DNA of 8,877 bases. Origin: Bacteroidia bacterium (GTDB taxonomy: Bacteria > Bacteroidota > Bacteroidia > Cytophagales > Cyclobacteriaceae). Positions 1 to 8,877 of this stretch are shown piece by piece; within the stretch, counting starts at the first letter, position 1; every line of letters begins with the position of its first letter. The notes under the pieces were generated by a model. It saw only the letters and a program-made list of their open reading frames with translations. It did not search any database and had not been told where the DNA came from. The translations under genes were made by a program, and so were the position numbers. Where the stretch lies: the NCBI GenBank assembly GCA_012031955.1, contig JAAURZ010000066.1, positions 1 to 8,877 on the forward strand. The letters are read 5' to 3'.

Positions 1-2
1 AA

Positions 3-74
3 TTTCGGGAGCAGGTCCGAGCCAACACTGAGGCGGCAATGACGCACGAACATCTGGTCTTTGACAGCGATTAG
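3..74 (+). CDS. C-terminal tail of an unidentified protein (5' end outside window)
   Basis: An open frame runs from the left edge to a TAG at 72-74 and encodes 23 residues ending in THEHLVFDSD. The other two plus frames stop within the first 42 bases, and the composition (acidic and polar, ordinary codons) fits the end of a real gene. The piece is too short to assign a family. It could also be a chance open stretch. Confidence 0.35.
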   Translation, partial: FREQVRANTEAAMTHEHLVFDSD

Positions 75-168
75 GTGATGCTAGGCAAATGGAGGGAATT
101 GAGATTTCAGTAATTACCAACGTACGTAGTACGCGTTCGCCCGAACATTGTAATAAGGAATCACCAAC
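75..168. other. Intergenic spacer with a short perfect inverted repeat
   Basis: No coding frame was seen here. The only structure is CGTAC-GTA-GTACG at 121-133, a perfect 5-bp inverted repeat with a 3-base spacer. It lies just downstream of the stop of the minus-strand regulator and could be a protein-binding site. It is not flanked by a T-run, so a terminator role is not supported. Confidence 0.3.
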
Positions 169-387
169 CTATTTCTTCGAAGGCACCAACAACTCCCTCA
201 CATCCACATCGAGGAACTTGGCTATCTTATAGAATATCTCAATCGCGGGCTGACTATCGTTGGTGCACCACCGCGAAACGGTGGCGGGTCTAACGTTCAG
301 GTGGTCGGCCAGCTCTTTGTTCGTCCTTTTCTTTTCTGCCAGCAGCACCTTTAATCTGTTGTAGTCCGCCTTGGTTGATTTGCTCAT
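169..387 (-). CDS. Small Cro/C1-type (XRE) helix-turn-helix regulator
   Basis: A 72-residue protein that is almost only a Cro/C1-type DNA-binding domain. Residues about 21-40 form the recognition motif (NKELADHLNVRPATVSRW), followed by the usual IEIFYKIAKFLDVDVRELL helices of the family. I chose the ATG at 385-387 because the Lys-rich MSKSTKADYNRLK start matches the usual N-terminus of such proteins. An in-frame ATG at 412-414 and a TTG at 427-429 would add 9 or 14 residues. No sensor or oligomerisation domain is present, so it probably acts as a dimeric repressor of itself and perhaps of the divergent gene at 546. Its cytoplasmic DNA-binding role is known from the family; its targets are inferred only from position. 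Confidence 0.8.
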   Translation of the reverse strand: MSKSTKADYNRLKVLLAEKKRTNKELADHLNVRPATVSRWCTNDSQPAIEIFYKIAKFLDVDVRELLVPSKK

Positions 388-463
388 TCGTCTGGTTTTC
401 TCAAATCTAACCATTTGACAATAAGCCAATTGAATACGTATAAAAGGAAATTAAATGCGCTAT

Positions 464-481
464 AATGTAATATATATCATT
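464..481. promoter_or_regulatory. Candidate operator in the divergent XRE / unknown-gene promoter region
   Basis: In the very A+T-rich region between the two divergent genes, AATG-TA-ATATAT-AT-CATT reads as an interrupted dyad: the outer 4 bases and central 6 bases are symmetric, with two 2-base mismatches. The position fits an operator for the small regulator. A+T-rich sequence makes such dyads by chance, so support is weak. Confidence 0.25.
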
Positions 482-545
482 GTAGACAAATATAATTTCG
501 TTTTATTTATATCTTTATATCATTAAAGGAGCTATTCAAATTTTA

Positions 546-881
546 ATGGAACCGGAAAAAATTCGGCATCGACAGGTCATTTCCTCCGCTGAAGCGCAGA
601 TATGTATCCGCCTTATCGTGGAAGAACTGAAAACCCGCAAACTCTTTCATGGCCTGCATGAACTCGGTTTTGAAGACTGCTATTTGCAGCCGAACCTGGA
701 TGAATTCATTTTGCAATGTGTTGGCTTGCGCGACGATTCCGATGATATCTTCAAGACGTACACCGCCATCATGAATAAGCGCTCCGCAAAAATTCGCAAG
801 GACGGCGATATGATAATAAAGCAGGCTGTGAAAGCTTATCGCGAGATCGTCCAAATCAAAAGCACGGCGCCAGGTAAATAA
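546..881 (+). CDS. Unrecognised 111-residue helical protein
   Basis: I do not recognise a family. The protein is predicted cytoplasmic: it has no signal peptide or membrane segment, a charged amphipathic sequence, and a likely all-alpha fold. An acidic centre (DEFILQCVGLRDDSDDIF) is followed by a Lys-rich C-terminal helix. A TAAAGGAG element lies at 524-531, but its end is 14 bases from the ATG, long for a classical ribosome site. The overlapping minus-strand frame at 543-854 has less natural composition and no start signal, so I take the plus strand. A strong hairpin begins two bases after the stop, so the gene is probably monocistronic. It is divergent from the small XRE regulator, which may control it. 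Confidence 0.65.
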   Translation: MEPEKIRHRQVISSAEAQICIRLIVEELKTRKLFHGLHELGFEDCYLQPNLDEFILQCVGLRDDSDDIFKTYTAIMNKRSAKIRKDGDMIIKQAVKAYREIVQIKSTAPGK

Positions 882-882
882 A

Positions 883-919
883 AGAGCGCGGGCAAAAGAA
901 CACCTTTCGCCTGCGCTCT
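883..919. terminator. Strong stem-loop after the 111-residue gene
   Basis: AGAGCGCGGGC at 883-893 pairs with GCCTGCGCTCT at 909-919 (11 bp, one G-T wobble). The loop can extend the stem by AAAG/CTTT after an A-C mismatch. It starts 2 bases after the stop of the upstream gene. On the plus strand it lacks a clear T-run. On the minus strand it is followed by TTTTATTT, so its intrinsic termination would be better in that direction. Confidence 0.65.
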
Positions 920-1072
920 ACATTCTATTGTACCTACGCAGTAGCTTGCGCTATTTGTTGGACGAACTGGGTGGGTATTTTGTGTTCACTACAGAAACTT
1001 CAAGAACCAAGCAAAGTATCAAATGAGATGAATGTGGCATACGATAGCTGAACATTTAACACTCATACCCGC

Positions 1073-1095
1073 ATTCCGTTCACTGGTGAACGAAT
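1073..1095. promoter_or_regulatory. Palindrome upstream of the WYL regulator (candidate operator)
   Basis: CGTTCAC-TG-GTGAACG is a perfect 7-bp inverted repeat with a 2-base centre. It extends to 10-bp arms (ATTC-GTTCAC / GTGAACGAAT) if one C is bulged. It lies about 43 bases before the start of the WYL regulator, the position expected for autoregulation. The rest of 920-1138 shows no gene or other clear structure. Confidence 0.45.
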
Positions 1096-1138
1096 TTTCC
1101 ACCATGAATTGTAAATTGAGTTCTCCAAACTTAACAGT

Positions 1139-1834
1139 ATGAAACGCGTCGACAGACTTATGGGTATTGTTACCATGCTTCAATCGCGGCGGTATGTGAC
1201 GGCGGAAAAAATTGCCGAAAAATTCGACATCAGCATTCGCACCGTCTATCGCGACATTCGCTCGCTGGAGGAAGTCGGCATTCCGGTGTCTTTCGAGAAC
1301 AACAAAGGGTACTTCATCGTGCAGGGCTATTTTCTTCCACCCGTTTCATTTTCGCCCGACGAAGCCAACGCGCTGGTGCTGATGGCTTCCCTGGCCGAAC
1401 GTTTCAGCGATGCGATCACCGCGCGCCATACCGAAAGCGCGCTTGTAAAGATCAAGGCCGTGTTGGGTGAATCCGACAAAGAGCGCTCGGAACGGCTGTC
1501 GGAAAGTATCAAGGTGGTGAACCCCAACCCCAACGATACGCACTACCTGCCGGAGATACAGGCGGCCATTTGTTTTCAGACCATACTCTCCGTCAACTAT
1601 ACCGACCTGAAGCAGCAAACCACGCAACGCGAGGTGGAGCCGATCGGCATGATCTATTACACCGACCAGTGGCACCTCATCGCCTGGTGCTGGTTGCGCC
1701 ACGATTACCGCGACTTCATCGTGAAGCAGATCAACAAGCTTTCCCTCACCCGCAAACCCTTCCGCAAGCACGACCACATCAGCGTCGCAGACCACATGCT
1801 CACCTGGAAAATAAATCCAACCGGACTGCCATAG
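1139..1834 (+). CDS. YafY-like transcriptional regulator (HTH_11 + WYL domain)
   Basis: A 231-residue cytoplasmic transcription factor of the usual length for this family. The N-terminal winged helix-turn-helix (residues about 4-60) contains the typical VTAEKIAEKFDISIRTVYRDI motif and the wing ending in NNKGYFI. A linker region rich in hydrophobic helices follows. The C-terminal WYL domain (about 150-215) carries WHLIAWCWLRHDYRDF, where the signature W-Y-L is W-H-L here. WYL domains are known to sense ligands, often nucleic acid or nucleotides, in regulators and defence systems; the ligand here cannot be told. The ATG at 1139 is supported by the direct MKRVDRL start typical of the family. No adjacent target gene is obvious; the upstream palindrome suggests autoregulation. 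The reading frame is intact. Confidence 0.9.
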   Translation: MKRVDRLMGIVTMLQSRRYVTAEKIAEKFDISIRTVYRDIRSLEEVGIPVSFENNKGYFIVQGYFLPPVSFSPDEANALVLMASLAERFSDAITARHTESALVKIKAVLGESDKERSERLSESIKVVNPNPNDTHYLPEIQAAICFQTILSVNYTDLKQQTTQREVEPIGMIYYTDQWHLIAWCWLRHDYRDFIVKQINKLSLTRKPFRKHDHISVADHMLTWKINPTGLP

Positions 1835-1865
1835 GGCTGTCAGTGGCCTGAGGTTATTTCGCCGT

Positions 1866-1892
1866 GTCCAATCCGCAAGCTTCGGGTTGGGC
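1866..1892. terminator. Hairpin downstream of the WYL regulator
   Basis: CCAATCCG at 1868-1875 pairs with CGGGTTGG at 1883-1890 around a 7-base loop (8 bp, one T-G wobble), and two more flanking pairs are possible. It lies 34 bases after the stop of the regulator and before the next start. No T-run follows, so this is a possible terminator or leader structure rather than a textbook terminator. Confidence 0.35.
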
Positions 1893-1921
1893 ATGCATGT
1901 TATAACTATCAATTTCGAGCC

Positions 1922-2143
1922 ATGAATCCGACACAATCACTAGCACACGAGCGCAGCCGCCGTTTTTCGCGATGGGACGCCGTCGTAAAATTTCTGTCAG
2001 GCCTGACCGGCAAAGACAGCGAGATCAGGATTTCGCACGATAAGGATGAAGATTGGAGCGTGGAAGTGCGGGACCGTGTGAAGAAAATTCAACACAAAAA
2101 CCGGTCTTCCCTCGGGGCAGGCCTTCACGACCTCTATTGGTAA
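1922..2143 (+). CDS. Unknown 73-residue basic protein
   Basis: A small soluble protein with many charged residues (RSRRFSRWDAVVKFL near the N-terminus, DKDEDWSVEVRDRVKK in the middle) and no signal or membrane segment. I recognise no family. Support comes from the ATG start, an intact frame with ordinary codon use, and the stop at 2141-2143 lying one base before the ATG of the next gene, which is typical of translational coupling. An overlapping minus-strand frame exists at 1997-2323 but runs across both plus genes and looks like a shadow. It could be non-coding leader sequence. Confidence 0.45.
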   Translation: MNPTQSLAHERSRRFSRWDAVVKFLSGLTGKDSEIRISHDKDEDWSVEVRDRVKKIQHKNRSSLGAGLHDLYW

Positions 2144-2144
2144 C

Positions 2145-2867
2145 ATGTTTCGAACAAGCTTACTCCTGCTTATCGTCACGTTGACGGCTGGCGACGCCAT
2201 CGGCCAGGTGCGCGACTCCGTATCGCGGCCAACGCTGCTTATCACGCCGCGACTGAACAGCGCCGGGCACTTTCCTTTTACCGGGTCGCTTATCAACCAC
2301 CACCTCAATGCCGACCTGAACATTTTCTACAGCCGGCGCACGCTGGGGTTTTTCCTCTTCAAGTCGTACGACATTGCCGACCCGCACTCGATCGTGAACT
2401 ACTTCCAACCGGGCGTATTTGCCAACTTACAGTTGCGCCCCACTTTTAAGGCGCGCGTGGTGTTCGGCTACATCTTCTCGCAAACCGACGGCTTCCGCGA
2501 CAGCGACTCAGACTATTACACGGCTGTGGCGTTTTACTGGGATCCTTCGCCCAACTTCCATGTCGAACACACCGCCCTGTTCTATGACTATACGCTTAAC
2601 AAGAAACTCGCCAACCGGTTGCTGGTGGGTTGGTCGTCGCGGAAGGTGAAAGTGGAAGTGTATATCTGGCACCGCTATGTGATGGACGAAGAGCGGCAGG
2701 CGGTATCGTCGGCGCTGGCGCTCACGTTCCCCAAGGTCAAGCTAAGCGAAAAGGTGTCGGTGCAACTCACCTCTACGTACATGGGCTACATGAGCAAGAG
2801 CAAACCCGACTATGCATTGCGCGATGGGTTCCTCTTTACGCTTGCGGCTCCCATCTCACCGCTATAA
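2145..2867 (+). CDS. Secreted/outer-membrane beta-rich protein of unknown function
   Basis: A 240-residue protein with a clear N-terminal signal peptide: a basic start (MFR), a hydrophobic LLLLIVTL core, and likely cleavage after residues 18-21 near the GDAIGQ segment. The mature part alternates polar and hydrophobic residues and is rich in Tyr, Phe and Trp (for example ADLNIFYSRRTLGFFLFKSY and VKVEVYIWHRYVM). This pattern fits an outer-membrane beta-barrel of roughly 8-10 strands or a periplasmic beta protein. The C-terminus ends FLFTLAAPISPL, with no terminal aromatic residue. It follows the small protein at 1922 by one base and may be co-translated with it. No enzyme motif is seen. The assignment is to a structural class only. 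Confidence 0.7.
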   Translation: MFRTSLLLLIVTLTAGDAIGQVRDSVSRPTLLITPRLNSAGHFPFTGSLINHHLNADLNIFYSRRTLGFFLFKSYDIADPHSIVNYFQPGVFANLQLRPTFKARVVFGYIFSQTDGFRDSDSDYYTAVAFYWDPSPNFHVEHTALFYDYTLNKKLANRLLVGWSSRKVKVEVYIWHRYVMDEERQAVSSALALTFPKVKLSEKVSVQLTSTYMGYMSKSKPDYALRDGFLFTLAAPISPL

Positions 2868-2995
2868 CACGGAAACAAAAAGCAGATTCCGCGCGTCGTG
2901 ATTTGGCTCCCGTTTTTTCTACGGGCTACGGGTCGCAGACACACGCTGATTATCGGATTATACTGTTTATGAGAGAAAGGCCTCGCTAATCATTA

Positions 2996-3023
2996 CTGGC
3001 AGCCCCGGATTACGGGACGCCAG
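2996..3023. terminator. Stem-loop between the convergent barrel and repressor genes
   Basis: CTGGC at 2996-3000 pairs with GCCAG at 3019-3023, and inner CCCG/CGGG closes a GATTA loop, with a small internal loop between the two stems. It sits between the 3' ends of convergent genes, where a shared terminator is expected. There is no T-run on the plus strand. The rest of 2868-3058 shows no gene. Confidence 0.4.
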
Positions 3024-3058
3024 CATGATCGGGCAAACAGCGAAGAAAGCCAACTCTT

Positions 3059-3841
3059 TTATTTTTTCTTAAGGCGCGCCAATTCCTCCTGCAGGGAGTA
3101 AATGGTGAGCGCCAGGTGGTCCATTTGTTTTCTATCTGCTTCGTCGGGCCCGGGAAACTTGGTGGAGAAAAATCCCTTGGCCTGCCATACTTCGAGTATG
3201 TCCTCCGCGGCGATAGCATAGGGCTGATATTGGCGATTGTCTGACACCAGCAGAAACTTTTCGTCGTCCGAAAAATTGAACATCCGCTTGAATACAATCC
3301 CCTCTGTCTTCGTCACAACGACATAAAGGTTTCCATTCTTCACCTTGTCGAGGTTGTCGATGTATTCGCCGAACACGATACTGCCGGGTTGCACCGGAAG
3401 CATGGAGTCCCCTTTAATTTCGAACGCTCTATATGTAGCAGCGCGCGGAAGCACCGGCACATTCATGCGCGGCAGGTCGCGAATAAATTCCGGGTCCTGG
3501 TATCCATTCAGGTATCCGGCGGAAGCCTTCTGCGACACCAGTTCTACGTTCTCCCTGTCGTCTTTATCAACCGTAATGGCCAGTATCTCCTTGCCACGAG
3601 CCATCGGCTTGGCCTTCCATTCGGGTTCAGGCACTTTACTTAATTCCTTTCTGCTCAATATATCAAGACTCACCTGAAAGGTTTCTGCAATGTCGAGTAA
3701 ACAGGGCAGCGGTGGGGTTGCTCTCGCCTCCTCATAAGCACCTATTACCGACTGCTTCACGCCCAGTTTCTCGGCAAGTTGTTTTTGCGTCCAGCCCTTT
3801 TGAGCACGGAGAAACTTGAGGTTCTTACTAATCACATTCAT
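3059..3841 (-). CDS. LexA/CI-like repressor: XRE helix-turn-helix + S24 self-cleaving peptidase
   Basis: A 260-residue repressor. Residues 5-60 are a Cro/C1-type DNA-binding domain (WTQKQLAEKLGVKQSVIGAYE). Residues about 105-225 are an S24 (LexA/UmuD-type) peptidase: the likely nucleophile is Ser146 in KGDSMLPV, the general-base Lys is Lys185 in GIVFKRM, and a probable self-cleavage bond is Ala108-Gly109 in KASAGYLNGY. A charged helix (LQEELARLKKK) ends the protein. The family is known to be inactivated by RecA-stimulated autocleavage, or by related signals, after DNA damage. I chose the ATG at 3839-3841 because it starts directly before the HTH; a TTG at 3881-3883 would add 14 unconserved-looking residues. 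It is divergent from dinB, and two matching inverted repeats lie between them. It is therefore likely the SOS-type repressor of this cassette and of itself. Confidence 0.9.
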   Translation of the reverse strand: MNVISKNLKFLRAQKGWTQKQLAEKLGVKQSVIGAYEEARATPPLPCLLDIAETFQVSLDILSRKELSKVPEPEWKAKPMARGKEILAITVDKDDRENVELVSQKASAGYLNGYQDPEFIRDLPRMNVPVLPRAATYRAFEIKGDSMLPVQPGSIVFGEYIDNLDKVKNGNLYVVVTKTEGIVFKRMFNFSDDEKFLLVSDNRQYQPYAIAAEDILEVWQAKGFFSTKFPGPDEADRKQMDHLALTIYSLQEELARLKKK

Positions 3842-3910
3842 GACATCACTTGTCTGGTAAACACTCGTCCTTGTGACGATCAACCTACGCTAATGACTTC
3901 ACAAATAAAA

Positions 3911-3925
3911 ACTAAATATTTTAGT
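3911..3925. promoter_or_regulatory. Operator 1 for the S24 repressor (predicted)
   Basis: ACTAAA-TAT-TTTAGT is a perfect 6-bp inverted repeat with a 3-base centre. It recurs almost exactly at 3944-3958, and both sites lie in the 128-base gap between the divergent repressor and dinB. Two copies of a dyad between a repressor and its presumed target support an operator. The binding protein is inferred, not shown. Confidence 0.7.
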
Positions 3926-3943
3926 ATTACAATGTTTCATGAT

Positions 3944-3958
3944 ACTAATTTATTTAGT
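3944..3958. promoter_or_regulatory. Operator 2 for the S24 repressor (predicted)
   Basis: ACTAAT-TTA-TTTAGT is the same dyad as at 3911-3925 with one arm mismatch. The two centres are 33 bp apart, close to three helical turns, so dimers could bind on the same DNA face. It ends 11 bases before the dinB ATG, so bound repressor would cover the dinB promoter or start region. Confidence 0.7.
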
Positions 3959-3969
3959 TATATAGCGTC

Positions 3970-5169
3970 ATGAATGCGAATAGAAACATTGTTCACCTGG
4001 ATCTGGATGCTTTTTTTGTGGCCGTGGAGCGCCTCAAGGACAAAAAGCTTGTTGGCAACCCCTTATTATAGGAGGCAGCAGCCGGCGTGGCGTGGTGGCC
4101 GCCTGCAGCTACGAAACGCGGCGCTTCGGCGTGCACTCCGCCATGCCCATGTACCTGGCGTTGCAACTTTGCCCCGACGCCATCGTCATCTCCGGCGACG
4201 TGGAGGCGTACAGCAAGTTCTCGCACCTGGTTCACCGAAGTGATCGCCGAAGAGTCGCCCAGCTTCGAAAAATCTTCCATCGACGAGTTCTACATAGACG
4301 CCAGCGGCATGGATCGCTACGTGGGCGCGTTCAAGTGGGCACTTGATCTCCATAAAAAGATTACCAGGGAAAGTGGCCTGCCTATCTCCATGGGCATGTC
4401 TATTAATAAGCTGATTTCCAAAGTGGCCACAGGTGAATACAAGCCCAACGCCAAAATTCAAATACCCCTGGGGCAGGAGCGTGATTTTCTCGACCCGCTG
4501 CCGGTGGAAAGAATTCCGATGATCGGCAAACAGACAGCGTCCTTCTTATATGATATGGGCGTGCGCCGGGTAAGCACCCTGCGTGAAATGCCACTGCCCT
4601 TCCTGGTAAGCGCGTTTGGCAAGAATGGCATCAGCCTCTGGAACAAGGCGCATGGTGTTGACGAGACGCCGGTAGTACCCTACAGCGAACAAAAGTCGAT
4701 CTCCACCGAAAGCACCTTCGAAGAAGATACGATAGACGTGAAGAGGCTGAAGTCGATCATGATCGCGATGGTAGAAAAAATCAGTTTCCAATTACGTCAG
4801 CAGAAAAAGCTTACGTCGTGTGTGACGGTGAAAATCAGGTACTCCAACTTCGATACGGAAACCAAGCAGATCCAGATTCCCTACACATCGTCGGACCATG
4901 TGATCCTGCGCACCGCCCTGGAACTGTTCGAGCGCCTCTACAACCGCCGCATGCTGATACGCCTCGTGGGTGTACGCCTGAGCGGCCTTGTGCATGGCAA
5001 CTACCAGATCAGCCTGTTTGACGACACGGTGGAAAGCATCAGCCTGTACGACGCCATCGACCGCATCAAACACAAACACGGGTCCGAAAAAGTAATGCGT
5101 GCCACGACCATCGACGTGGGTAAGCGGGTAAAAATGGAAATGAACATGTTTAAAGGAAATTTGAGATGA
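3970..5169 (+). CDS. dinB: DNA polymerase IV (Y-family translesion polymerase), two apparent frameshifts
   Basis: After correction this is a full-length protein of about 399 residues. Catalytic metal ligands are visible: Asp11 in VHLDLDAFF and Asp105-Glu106 in SSIDEFYID; the FF pair at 15-16 includes the steric-gate position. The palm/fingers segment RRFGVHSAMPM, the thumb helix-hairpin-helix region (PVERIPMIGKQTASFLYDMG) and the little finger domain follow. QISLF at residues 346-350 (5005-5019) matches a beta-clamp binding motif. The frame from 3970 stops at a TAG at 4069-4071. Adding one C to the C-run at 4059-4062 restores PLIIGGSS. Removing one T at 4231-4232 restores SHLVTEVIAEE and returns to the original frame. 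It copies damaged DNA with low fidelity (family knowledge). It is divergent from the S24 repressor, with operators 11 and 44 bases upstream. Confidence 0.92.
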
Positions 5170-5243
5170 CGTCAAAGCAAGCGGGCCAGGCGAAGTTCGC
5201 GAACCGGAAACCGGCAGCCGCCCGGCCCGCCGCCAAACCCTGA
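5166..5243 (+). CDS. Possible 25-residue basic Ala/Pro-rich micro-ORF overlapping the dinB stop
   Basis: An ATG at 5166 overlaps the dinB TGA (ATGA), and the frame runs 25 residues: MTSKQAGQAKFANR then KPAAARPAAKP. ATGA overlaps are typical of translational coupling. The Lys/Arg/Ala/Pro-rich composition resembles disordered nucleic-acid-binding tails. It could be a chance frame in structured G+C-rich DNA, or a tail of DinB separated by another frame error. No family is recognised. Confidence 0.25.
   Translation: MTSKQAGQAKFANRKPAAARPAAKP
5181..5230. terminator. G+C-rich structured element after dinB
   Basis: GCGGGCC at 5181-5187 is perfectly complementary to GGCCCGC at 5224-5230. The enclosed 36 bases can form smaller hairpins (GCG-AAGTT-CGC and CCGG-AAA-CCGG), giving a branched fold. 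It lies between dinB and the LigT-like gene. No T-run follows, so it may be an attenuating or mRNA-stabilising structure rather than a full terminator. Confidence 0.35.
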
Positions 5244-5285
5244 AGGGGGCGCGCGAAGAAACCAGTAATCAAAGACAACAACAAT

Positions 5286-5824
5286 ATGAGAACGACAGCA
5301 GTAAAAACCAGCCAGTCCATTCAGGAATTACTTTTTATCATTGCACCGCCGCGGCACATTGCCAGCGACGTGGCCGTGTTGAAAGACGACGTGCAATACC
5401 TTATCGGACGCGAGTTCGAAGATCGCTACACGCCGGCGCACATTTCTCTCTTTAAATATGCCGACGAACATATCGACGAAATCATCGAACACGTCGAAGC
5501 CAAGGCACGCAGTTTAAGGCATTCAATGTTTTTATCAAAAATCTGAATACGATCGTATGTGAACGGCAGACGTGTCATACCACCTGGACATCACTCAACA
5601 AATACCCCATACGCGAAATCTTTGAGAAAACAGTAAAGGAAGACGCCAACTTCACGCCCCGGCTCGTGATCGCGCGAAACCTTGGCGACGAAGATTTTCT
5701 CAAAAGCTGGCCCTATCTGAAAGACCTGCCCTACAGCCAGCACTTCCTTTGCGATCGCATTACGGTACTGGCGCGCACGGAAAATCGGTGGACGTTCTAT
5801 CGCGACATTCAGTTCAGTTTCTAA
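5286..5824 (+). CDS. LigT-like 2'-5' RNA ligase / cyclic phosphodiesterase family protein, one apparent frameshift
   Basis: The first frame (from ATG 5286) ends at a TGA at 5544-5546. A one-base loss near 5516-5520 (AAGG, restored as AAAGG or AAGGG) joins it to a second frame that runs to TAA 5822-5824, giving about 179 residues, the usual family length. The family has a two-lobed 2H fold with two His-x-Thr/Ser motifs. The first is present (AHISLFKY). At the second, the expected PHxTIAR-type sequence reads FTPRLVIAR, so both the His and the Thr/Ser are missing. The C-terminal SQHFLCDRITVLAR strand matches the family end. 2H enzymes act on RNA 2',3'-cyclic phosphate, 2'-5' bonds or cyclic nucleotides; with one motif lost, activity may be altered or absent. 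It lies downstream of dinB and upstream of recQ on the same strand. Confidence 0.8.
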
Positions 5825-5849
5825 TCAATCCTAAGCCGGTAAGTTGGCT

Positions 5850-5864
5850 GCAAGCAAAACTTGC
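5850..5864. terminator. Short hairpin after the LigT-like gene
   Basis: GCAAG-CAAAA-CTTGC is a perfect 5-bp stem with a 5-base loop 25 bases after the stop. It is followed on the plus strand by an A-run rather than a T-run, so terminator function is uncertain. The remaining spacer to recQ (to 5975) is A+T-rich. It holds a TTCAAAT direct repeat at 5914-5920 and 5927-5933 and an ACCGG/CCGGT inverted repeat around 5942-5960, but no gene. Confidence 0.25.
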
Positions 5865-5975
5865 GTTAAAAAAATAAACAACAAAATTTAAAATAGACGT
5901 AAGGCGGGCATTGTTCAAATAATGTTTTCAAATTAGGCAAAAACCGGCCGCGCACCGGTCAATACGCTTTTGAAA

Positions 5976-8142
5976 ATGTCCTCGAATAAAATGTCCATGT
6001 CTACACCACTCGAAATACTTCGGCAAAAATTTGGCTATAGCTCCTTCCGGTTGGAACAGGAAAGGGTGATCGACACCGTGCTGCAAAGGCGCGATACATT
6101 TGTGCTCATGCCCACCGGCGGCGGCAAGTCGCTCTGTTTCCAGATCCCCGCGCTGCTGCTCGAAAACCTCACCGTGGTGATCTCCCCGCTTATCGCGCTG
6201 ATGAAAGACCAGGTTGACGCACTCCGGCTCAACGGCATTCCCGCGGCTTACCTGAATTCAACGCAACATTTTCTTGAACAGGAAGAAATCTTGCGGCAGG
6301 TGCAAAACGGCGAGATAAAACTTCTGTACCTGGCGCCCGAAAAATTGCTGCGCAACAATGGCGCCTTTATCAAGACACTCGAGTCGCTGAGGGTAAGTAT
6401 GTACGCCATCGATGAAGCGCATTGCATTTCGCACTGGGGTCACGACTTCCGGCCGGAGTACCTCATGCTGGCGAAGCTAAAAGACGCAATGCCGGAAACA
6501 CCCATCATCGCGCTCACAGCCACAGCCGATGCGCTCACGCGCAAAGACATCATCGAAAAGCTGGCGCTACGAAATCCTGCCACTTTTGTATCCAGCTTCA
6601 ACAGGGCCAACATTCGTTATACCGTGGAACAAAAGCGGGATAGCTTTGCCAAGCTTCTGCAATTTCTTTCAGCGCACAACGACGACGCCGGCGTAATCTA
6701 TTGCCTGTCGCGACACTCCACGGAACAGGTGCACCGACCTGGTTGCCAAAGGTTATGCAGCCCCTGCCCTACCACGCCGGGCTCGACAAAGAAACACGCG
6801 CGCGACACCAGGAAATGTTTCTGAGAGACGAAATCAAAATTATGGTGGCAACCATCGCCTTTGGCATGGGCATCGACAAGTCGAACGTGCGCTATGTGGT
6901 GCACATGGACCTGCCCAAGAACATTGAAAGCTACTACCAGGAAACTGGCCGCGCGGTCGCGACGGTCTTGACAGCGAGGCGCTGTTATTTTATTCCGCCG
7001 CCGACGCCTTCAAGCTCAAGCGGCTCGTGGAAGTGGAAGACAACCGCGAACAAACCGGCGTCTACCTGAAAAAACTTGACCAGATGGTCACGTTTGGCGA
7101 ACTGACGAGCTGCCGGCGAAAATATTTATTGAATTACTTTGGCGAAGAGGCACCCGACCAGTGTGGCAATTGCGACAACTGCATCACGCGGGTCCATACA
7201 TTCGACGGCACCGTACTTGCGCAAAAAGCGCTGTCGGCCGTCGTGCGCCTGAATGAGGGCTTCGGCGTTAATTATGTGATCGATTTTCTCCGCGGGTCGC
7301 ACGCAGAAAAAATCCGGGAAGAGCACAAGTCCCTCAAGACCTTCGGTGTAGGAAGCGACGTGAGCAAGGAAGCGTGGAAAAGTATCTTCCACGACCTGAT
7401 CGCCCAGGGCCACCTTGTGAAATCGGTCGGCAACTATCCCTTGCTCCGGCTCACCGCTACGAGCGATGACGTGCTGAAAGGCAGAATCCAGGTGAACCTC
7501 ACGCAATCGAAAGAAAAGATCAAAGTGAATGAACCCGGTACCGGCTATGAAGCGGCGTTGTTGCAGCAACTGAAGGTGCGCCGACGCGAACTGGCCGACG
7601 CGGAAAATGTACCGGCGTACCAAATACTTTCCGACGCAACGCTTACAGAGGTCGCGACATTCCTGCCGCTCGACAAGGCCGGACTCAGCCGCATCAATGG
7701 CTTCGGTCAAATCAAATTAGAAAAATACGGCAAGGCATTTTGTGAAATCGTCTTTTCGTACTGCCGGCATCACCAACTACAGTCGCGCATCGATCAGAAG
7801 TCGCCGCGACGGCAACGCTACACGAATCCGGAACGAGAAACGGACACCAAAATCCAGAGCCTGAATCTAATCAACGAGGGGCATTCCGTTTCCGAAGTCG
7901 CGCGGCAACGCGGCCTTTCCGTAAGTACCGTGGAGAACCACCTTACCTTTTTCGTACAGCAAAACAAAATTGAAATTGAAAAACTCGTATCCGCCGAAAA
8001 GATCGCGGCTATCGAAAAGGCTTTCACGACAACTGCAGACACCATGCTTTCACCTGTGAAACAGATGCTGGGTGACGGCTTCTCGTATGGCGAAATCAGG
8101 TTTGTACGGGCACACCTTTTCAAAGAAATTCCAAATCCATAA
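5976..8142 (+). CDS. recQ: ATP-dependent DNA helicase RecQ with C-terminal HTH extension, apparent frameshifts
   Basis: About 722 residues after correction. Superfamily 2 motifs appear in order: Walker A PTGGGKS (about 46-52), [15 protein letters not shown] (146-149) with the RecQ aromatic loop [37 protein letters not shown] and [12 protein letters not shown]. Next come the zinc site Cys-x16-Cys-x2-Cys-x2-Cys (7111-7182), an RQC winged helix, an HRDC domain (about 7549-7755) and an HTH_40-like tail ([20 protein letters not shown]). RecQ unwinds DNA 3' to 5' in recombinational repair. The start is ATG 5976 (TTG 5970 and ATG 5991 are alternatives). Frame changes occur near 6729-6733 (probably two bases lost, restoring STEQVATDL), at 6761-6764 (extra C, restoring AALPYHAGL) and at 6955-6956 (one G lost, restoring GRAGRDG). 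It ends 7 bases before dnaE. Confidence 0.93.
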
Positions 8143-8149
8143 GTGGCGT

Positions 8150-8877
8150 ATGTATTTCAACTGCCATACCGCTTTCAGCTTCAAATACGGGACACTCACA
8201 ATCGAGCGATTGTTTCAGGAGGCACAACGGTACGGCATAAAAAAACTGGCGCTCACCGACATCAACAACACCGCCGCCTATGTCGAAATGCTCCGGCACT
8301 GCGCCGAGTATGCGCCCGCGCATCCGGGTAGCCAGACAACGAAGTATGGCAAACCAGCTTATAGCCTCGACATCGCGCTGGGCGTGGAGTTCCGGAACGA
8401 AAACGAATTGCGCTTTATAGCGCTGGCCAAAAATGGAGACGGCTTCACGGAAATCAACCGGTTCCTGTCTTTCCACAACCGGCACAACAAGGCGATCCCC
8501 ATGCGTGCGCCGGAGTTTCAGGATGTGTTTGTAATATACCCTTTCGGGAAAATATTTCCGGAACAACTTCGCAGCAACGAATACATCGGCATTCGTAAAA
8601 GTCAACTGACACAATTCTCATTCTCAACATTGCGCAAGGAGTTCCCCGGAAAATTTCTGGCATGGCACCCTGTCACATTCGCCACCAAGACCGACTTTAA
8701 CGTGCATCGCCTGTTGCGTGCCATCGACAACAATACATTGCTCAGCAAGCTGCCGACACACCAGCAAGCACAGCCCGACGAGTGCATGACGCCGGCAGAA
8801 GCACTGGAAGCTCAGTTTGCCGATTGCCCCGACCTCGTGGAGCGGGCGAATTTCATACTCGACAACTGCTCGCACTC
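8150..8877 (+). CDS. dnaE: DNA polymerase III alpha-subunit-like polymerase (accessory DnaE), N-terminal part
   Basis: An open frame from ATG 8150 runs to the window edge (242 codons) without a stop; the rest is outside. It begins MYFNCHTAFSFKYGTL and continues with LALTDINN and IALGVEFRNENE, the PHP-domain landmarks of bacterial C-family polymerases; a conserved VIYPFGK segment follows. The usual His-x-His metal motif reads Asn-x-His (residues 4-6), and the TDH-type motif reads TDIN, so the PHP phosphoesterase site is degenerate. This N-terminus resembles the second, accessory DnaE found beside dinB in Bacteroidota rather than the main replicase. That is inference, since the polymerase core is not visible. 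The start 7 bases after the recQ stop suggests coupled translation. Such DnaE copies serve translesion synthesis in other phyla. Confidence 0.88.
   Translation, partial: MYFNCHTAFSFKYGTLTIERLFQEAQRYGIKKLALTDINNTAAYVEMLRHCAEYAPAHPGSQTTKYGKPAYSLDIALGVEFRNENELRFIALAKNGDGFTEINRFLSFHNRHNKAIPMRAPEFQDVFVIYPFGKIFPEQLRSNEYIGIRKSQLTQFSFSTLRKEFPGKFLAWHPVTFATKTDFNVHRLLRAIDNNTLLSKLPTHQQAQPDECMTPAEALEAQFADCPDLVERANFILDNCSH

Follow-up and report, generated by a model that had tools for sequence, protein, structure and literature searches.

A probable SOS-controlled PolY2-DnaE2-type operon with added RecQ and 2H-protein genes in Cyclobacteriaceae

We analyzed an 8,877-nucleotide stretch of DNA from a Bacteroidia bacterium of the family Cyclobacteriaceae (assembly GCA_012031955.1, contig JAAURZ010000066.1, positions 1 to 8,877; hereafter the window), in which the gene of an S24-type repressor lies divergent from dinB, and dinB is followed on the same strand by genes for a LigT-like protein, a RecQ helicase, and an accessory DnaE polymerase. 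We consider it probable that this cassette represents an SOS-controlled translesion operon of the PolY2-DnaE2 type that, in one Cyclobacteriaceae lineage, captured a dedicated RecQ and a protein of the 2H phosphoesterase fold. The genes, their order, their conservation, the boxes, and the single RecQ clade are direct observations and are described first; loci and genomes of relatives carry our numbers (L and G).

The cassette and its conservation in relatives

The features of the cassette are the following (positions in the window; ORF, open reading frame).

3059..3841, minus strand: XRE-S24 repressor of the non-canonical LexA type (HTH_3, 2e-13; Peptidase_S24, 4e-9); likely start ATG at 3841, ORF open as far as 3883
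3912..3924: putative SOS box 1, CTAAATATTTTAG, matching CTAA-N5-TTAG
3945..3957: putative SOS box 2, CTAATTTATTTAG, matching CTAA-N5-TTAG, 33 bp from box 1
3970..5169, plus strand: dinB (PolY2), with IMS and IMS_C domains
5286..5824, plus strand: 2H-fold LigT-like gene (PF13563), second motif reading R-L-V
about 5970..8142, plus strand: cassette-specific recQ, with DEAD, Helicase_C, RecQ_Zn_bind, RQC, HRDC, and HTH_40 domains
8150..8877, plus strand: N-terminal part (about 242 codons) of an accessory dnaE that runs off the window, with PHP domain

Domain matches confirmed the genes and the order that an initial annotation of the window had proposed. That annotation had also placed a DinB with catalytic residues in an ImuB-like position, and the catalytic stretches DLDAFFV and SIDEF are indeed present; D11, D105, and E106 are invariant in a nine-row alignment, and the two stretches are kept in 108/120 and 115/120 relatives, respectively. 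As it had likewise stated, no ImuA (RecA-like) gene was recognized, neither among the ORFs of the window nor among those of the corresponding locus of Chryseolinea sp. H1M3-3 (L004). The dnaE part of the window is 50% identical to residues 1-249 of the L004 DnaE. Scans of the window for sigma-70 promoters and terminators gave counts at chance level.

For the analysis of the neighborhood, the best 80 of 441 DinB relatives in GTDB genomes were taken as loci, and the 23 of them with DinB at 70% or more are referred to as close loci. A same-strand dnaE follows dinB in 19 of these 23, a LigT gene lies downstream of dinB in 11, and recQ in four. The exact order of the window was found in L004, in Pseudochryseolinea flava (L005), and in L212, and Fulvivirgaceae JP3-4 (L012) has this order plus one extra ORF (DUF559). 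Among the matches listed, 42 of 295 genomes of the same family have a DinB that shares 77% identity or more with the L004 protein. Within 4 kb of dinB, on the same contig and strand, these 42 clade genomes carry LigT in 31 cases, recQ in 15, and both in 14, and DnaE lies within 9 kb of dinB in at least 33. The neighbor count covered 74 of the listed DinB rows, including all at 77% or more, 24 of the 98 RecQ rows, including each one from the genomes of those DinB proteins, and 41 of the 54 LigT rows; the DnaE count covered 52 of the listed DnaE rows plus 15 weak LigT rows, with G301 entered as a placeholder and hence scored without DnaE. Contig ends hide some neighbors (G199, G240, G269).

As the cassette recurs in many genomes, its gene order is not due to chance. 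The check across relatives that the initial annotation had suggested found LigT and recQ beside dinB or dnaE in many genomes and not in the window genome alone. Alternative orders exist, with dinB-recQ-LigT in G237 and G301 and dinB-recQ-dnaE in G298, and this shuffling of the order while the content is kept speaks for a functional connection over and above inheritance alone.

In other loci, the slot between dinB and dnaE holds Y1-transposase-like (RAYT-like) genes that contain an HUH-like stretch (L002:10213-10776, L007:11518-12075, L010:11224-11865, L013:11226-11651, L018:11374-11937); the Pfam cut-off was passed by the L018 match only, and L011 and the L014 fragment are alike by eye. Second dinB-dnaE cassettes within one genome were seen at L141 (G006; with divergent S24) and at L023/L014 (G017).

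The cassette RecQ and the 2H protein

The RecQ domain set (DEAD, Helicase_C, Zn, RQC, HRDC) and motifs were found in the pieces of the window RecQ as well as in the L004 copy. A cassette-like RecQ is present at E <= 1e-170 in 98/295 family genomes. We inspected 31 RecQ loci, 30 from the family search plus L101, of which 18 lie beside LigT, DinB, or DnaE and 13 have none of these genes within 1.5 kb (two of the latter, L165 and L175, stop shortly downstream of recQ). Maximum-likelihood analysis placed the 18 cassette RecQs and the N-terminal piece of the window RecQ, which covers 34% of the tree columns, in one clade apart from 14 free RecQs, with a support of 100/98 and presence in 100% of 200 bootstrap trees. 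No member of this clade was found outside the cassette in the loci inspected, and the clade is kept in at least 17 of the 295 family genomes. When RecQs were counted at E <= 1e-60 in the genomes of 23 relatives, the four genomes with a cassette recQ had three, which are the four in which third-copy status was counted, and the others had one or two; the non-cassette RecQs are of other kinds, their open frames measuring about 730 and 640 codons. All 18 cassette RecQs have Walker A, motif VI, and the zinc cysteines intact, and the DEAH stretch, as the pattern was written, is kept in 15. Additional to the other RecQs in the four genomes counted, united in a single clade, and with its helicase motifs kept, the cassette RecQ is a separate paralog of one origin in the sample that is tied to the operon and apparently active.

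Six of the weaker RecQ rows were placed by coordinates, and none has a listed DinB within 5 kb. The idea that the RecQ had been SOS-regulated as a free gene before it joined the operon was not supported by the 13 free loci, only one of which has a box upstream. Free relatives of the cassette RecQ about 6 kb downstream of dinB occur in other lineages (L209 of G104, G024, L052), and no box was found at the one in L209.

The LigT-like protein of the window gave only a sub-threshold match to PF13563, in its second piece (E 0.014), and the intact LigT of L004 matched at 1.5e-12. When the L004 protein was modeled with AlphaFold2 (pLDDT, the predicted local distance difference test score, 89.6), the best structural match was YjcG of Bacillus subtilis (2d4g), with a TM score of 0.78 and an E value of 1.8e-10. 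Based on this intact relative, the LigT-like protein is predicted to have a 2H phosphoesterase fold. LigT was found in 54/295 genomes of the family at E <= 1e-8, with 39 clear copies (E <= 1.5e-27), and 34 of these 39 adjoin DinB, RecQ, or DnaE by their coordinates. A cassette gene was visible at 26 of the 30 best LigT loci.

The motifs of the window protein read H-I-S and R-L-V, so that its HxS/T pair is incomplete. Among 121 homologues (the best 120 of 445 plus the query, sampled irrespective of genomic place), both motifs are complete in 64 and incomplete in 57; the first His is kept in 85 and the second in 112, and 47 other positions are conserved to at least 97%. By reading, the pair is complete in four of 12 cassette members (11 cassette loci and the window). 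2H catalysis seems to be dispensable in part of the members of SOS units. The RNA-end processing that had been ascribed to the LigT-like protein is weakened by this motif loss and doubtful, although the relatives with both motifs may have it.

In G286 and G290, the first gene of a box-2H-dinB-ORF-dnaE operon encodes a distant 2H protein of 24-26% identity in which both motifs are intact, and another 2H protein has a box and lies upstream of dinB in G167 and has boxes without dinB in G077. In the G167 and G077 proteins, the catalytic pair is incomplete by eye, with H-I-R as the first motif. An order-wide search with the distant 2H protein gave matches in 20/231 genomes; three of the 25 loci have DinB on the piece (L215, L230, and L236, which is the L004 cassette itself), and five have a box (L214, L215, L221, L230, L236). 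Judged by these sequences, 2H proteins joined predicted SOS units in more than one lineage. We would like to note that ORFs of the 23S-rRNA-intervening-sequence protein (23S-IVP, four-helix) type occur inside distant 2H-dinB(-dnaE) operons (L208:6297-6650, L239:3243-3596, L207); the Pfam match was run for the L208 ORF alone.

RecQ helicases are usually classed with recombination and fork repair, and mutasomes with polymerases. A RecQ paralog clade that is, as sampled, confined to a translesion operon raises the testable question of whether unwinding limits or steers mutagenic bypass, and this question is tractable because the cassette RecQ is separable from the two other RecQs of the same genome. 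The 2H protein, in turn, could represent a new small subunit in mutasome-type complexes.

Predicted SOS control of the operon

The S24 protein of the window combines an HTH_3-type N-terminus with an S24 peptidase domain, as in the non-canonical LexA of Bacteroidetes. Its stretches KASAGYL, GDSM, and IVFKRM align with relatives, and we take them to be the cleavage site, the catalytic Ser, and the catalytic Lys, respectively. Two 13-bp palindromes of the form CTAA-N5-TTAG between S24 and dinB are the sole matches within the window. A box spacing of 31-33 bp was also found in L001-L006, L010, L012, L018, and L022, and each of the 22 usable close loci (L001-L023, L017 excepted) has at least one box within 300 bp upstream of dinB, with two boxes in 12 of them, at a chance expectation of 0.006 per 321 bp. 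According to the accessible part of PMC8565304 (Sanchez-Osuna et al. 2021), CTAA-N5-TTAG is the site of the non-canonical Bacteroidetes LexA, with binding and mitomycin induction reported in other species; in Elizabethkingia, mitomycin induces both a regulator of this family and the polymerase gene that lies opposite to it, and the box has diverged there.

We opened 20 non-cassette box regions, drawn from five genomes, and found a recognizable repair or SOS gene beside the box in 14. These comprise recA, uvrA, three imuA-imuB-dnaE2 cassettes, three ligases of the non-homologous end joining (NHEJ) type, two SRAP operons, three PA0069 radical SAM genes, and one second S24|dinB-dnaE arrangement; of the remaining regions, three have a recurrent small ORF alone and three nothing telling. 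We ran family models on two ImuB proteins and on a single example each of recA, uvrA, PA0069, SRAP, ligase, and ImuA, with an NCBIfam match below the cut-off and no Pfam match for ImuA; the other assignments were made by the look of the first residues, for ImuB also by the ImuB family search. As the tandem boxes correspond to the published LexA site, which in relatives also stands at recA, uvrA, imuA, and SRAP, the operon of the window is very probably SOS-controlled, in agreement with the SOS-type control initially proposed.

Several side aspects of these boxes were observed. The recurrent small ORF of roughly 103-131 codons was seen under boxes in L130, L132, L135, L137, L138, L139, and L143; it adjoins an NHEJ-type ligase in L132, L137, and L138 and a SRAP-like gene in L143, and three examples tested gave no Pfam match. 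The PA0069-family radical SAM genes lie at L131:2721-3782, L144:2416-3504, and L149:2276-3328 (the model was run on L131), and near the PA0069 gene of L131 lies another 2H protein of PF13563 that has both motifs. In the Algoriphagus-type loci L029-L052, CTAA-N5-TTAG is absent upstream of dinB. When all loci are taken together, 15 have an inverted repeat TGTTTA-N5-TAAACA upstream of dinB, and in the Algoriphagus-type loci it is perhaps a shifted operator.

The operon content of the Chryseolinea-related genomes suggests a common induction of DNA unwinding and mutagenic bypass. For the regulation in the window organism and for every protein-level step, we infer from the protein families a scheme in which the divergent S24 protein, as a non-canonical LexA, would repress the operon via the two CTAA-N5-TTAG boxes until RecA filaments on damaged DNA cause its self-cleavage, after which dinB, the 2H gene, recQ, and dnaE would be expressed jointly. 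PolY2 would then insert opposite the lesion and the accessory DnaE would extend, and the extra RecQ would open stalled-fork, recombination, or structured-DNA intermediates so that the polymerases can act. As the catalytic pair is often lost, the 2H protein may persist chiefly in a binding or scaffolding role, with nucleic acid, a nucleotide, or a partner as the ligand.

Alternative readings and known systems

Several observations weigh against a captured RecQ and 2H protein in an SOS-controlled translesion operon. As only 15 of the 42 clade genomes have recQ in the vicinity of dinB, it is not required, and S24 adjoins dinB in 12/23 close loci, where L017 starts at dinB and L023 holds an S24 fragment only. 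For five of the 39 clear LigT copies (G004, G190, G281, G291, G021), neither DinB nor RecQ nor DnaE is nearby, and no box was found at the four free LigT loci that were opened (L201, L202, L203, L206). A loose box is present upstream of dinB in only 28 of 77 usable loci. The strict box ACTAAWWWWWTTAGT gave 51 matches in 12 genomes versus 21 for the reversed control (25 versus 4 in G001-G003), so that single matches can be chance. The RecA-binding tail motif of PolY was not above noise by pairwise score in the window (RecA-NT-like motif, 25 versus 21.9 for shuffled sequences, standard deviation 4.0), L004, or L005; in L029 and L076, the score was well above the mean of the shuffles. Finally, the cassette copy of the window itself is frame-broken, as described below.

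It is possible, though we doubt it, that recQ and LigT joined the SOS operon merely for inducibility and serve separate pathways, such as recombination repair and nucleotide clean-up, that are not linked to the polymerases. This regulatory convenience would fit the Y1-transposase-like and DUF559 genes that occupy the same slot elsewhere, and the 23S-IVP gene in L208, and entry into the operon would have brought new control, as free RecQ relatives mostly have no box (one of 13 has one). Moreover, the accessible part of PMC5552922 lists the damage-regulated Deinococcus genes ligT (cinA-ligT-recA) and recQ in units apart from each other. However, a mere convenience does not account well for a RecQ of single origin that is kept in at least 17/295 family genomes, is reordered inside the cassette, and has no clade member outside it in the loci inspected.

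A stronger version of a functional link, which we regard as unlikely, is a helicase-coupled mutasome. Here, the RecQ clade would have evolved solely as the partner of PolY2 and the accessory DnaE, and the 2H pseudo-enzyme, as a small regulatory subunit, would fill the position held by UmuD', YolD, or ImuB-C in other systems, with SOS-induced unwinding and mutagenic synthesis united in one machine.

As three of the five window genes (dinB, LigT, recQ) are frame-broken as sequenced, the window copy could also be a decaying, non-functional remnant, which we consider very improbable. The dinB gene has an in-frame stop at 4069 and, by comparison with relatives by eye, is out of frame to about 4230, LigT has at least one frame change near 5500-5520, and recQ has frame breaks at 6731-6764 and near 6955; these three genes are adjacent, and the second 2H motif is lost, as expected for decay. 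However, S24 and the dnaE part are open, the boxes are present, and relatives carry intact versions of the broken genes. Because the open part of the window DinB shares 97% identity with P0001, a full-length protein, and the similarity remains high on either side of the breaks, an assembly or sequence error, which the pattern resembles, is likelier than decay.

A mobile or anti-phage defense island instead of host repair has next to nothing to recommend it: XRE-S24 proteins resemble phage CI repressors (accessible part of PMC8565304) and PADLOC DpdF models match the L004 RecQ, but these models seem to match RecQ helicases generally, the DinB, LigT, and DnaE of L004 match no PADLOC model, the L004 LigT has no match in a plasmid collection, and the box regulon is one of host repair.

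With an SOS-controlled operon that captured a RecQ and a 2H protein as the preferred explanation, the regulator is like the non-canonical Bacteroidetes LexA in its CI-like N-terminus, S24 domain, and CTAA-N5-TTAG box, and the regulon in the accessible part of PMC8565304 likewise includes recA, dinB, imuA-imuB-dnaE2, and SRAP. That part also reports RecQ (COG0514) as regulated in several species, with the location of the gene not given, and dinB-dnaE operons under another box type; unlike here, it describes no dinB-LigT-recQ-dnaE operon and has zero occurrences of "ligase" and "Chryseolinea".

PolY2 beside DnaE2 in Bacteroidetes has been described (accessible parts of PMC6511836 and PMC12926913), and the cassette resembles this mutasome in its Y-family polymerase with catalytic residues and adjacent accessory DnaE. 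It differs from the PolY2-DnaE2 or DnaE2B-PolY-RecA mutasome in the extra RecQ and 2H genes, and "RecQ" and "LigT" have zero occurrences in the accessible part of PMC12926913. Our literature search, whose coverage excluded most subscription papers, found no report of a RecQ and a 2H protein inside such an operon. As far as found, the new elements are thus a RecQ clade tied to the operon and a 2H protein often without its catalytic pair, whereas the regulator type, the PolY-DnaE2 pair, and, in Deinococcus, the damage regulation of LigT and recQ were already known from the accessible parts of these papers.

The initial annotation had further suggested a variant of the lexA-imuA-imuB-dnaE2 cassette. 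Both are Y-family and DnaE2 operons under damage regulation, which is predicted here, but the cassette has no ImuA and its Y-family member retains the catalytic residues. ImuB was found in 44/295 family genomes. When G240, with its cassette on a short contig, is added to the 42 clade genomes, 21 of these 43 have ImuB at another place, and imu cassettes lie elsewhere in relatives (L133, L136, L146). We therefore rejected this variant, and the core corresponds to the described PolY2-DnaE2 pair. ImuB is more common with the cassette recQ (13/17) than without it (8/26; Fisher p 0.005), for which shared ancestry and genome size may be confounders. The accessible part of PMC12926913 describes DnaE2B genomes as being without imuA and imuB; the coexistence of ImuB with the cassette in 21/43 genomes would qualify this statement if the DnaE indeed belongs to the DnaE2B group, as is presumed here.

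Among the 2H phosphoesterases, the protein shares its predicted fold with YjcG of B. subtilis (2d4g) and differs from it by the incomplete HxS/T pair in the window. The IrrE/DdrO regulon of Deinococcus (accessible part of PMC5552922) likewise has a LigT-type 2H gene (cinA-ligT-recA) and recQ under one damage repressor, so that the damage link of these two genes has precedent. The repressor and the box differ from those here, and ligT and recQ appear as units of their own, apart from dinB and dnaE. The presence of a 2H protein in both damage responses hints at a recurrent and as yet unexplained role of 2H proteins in the response to DNA damage.

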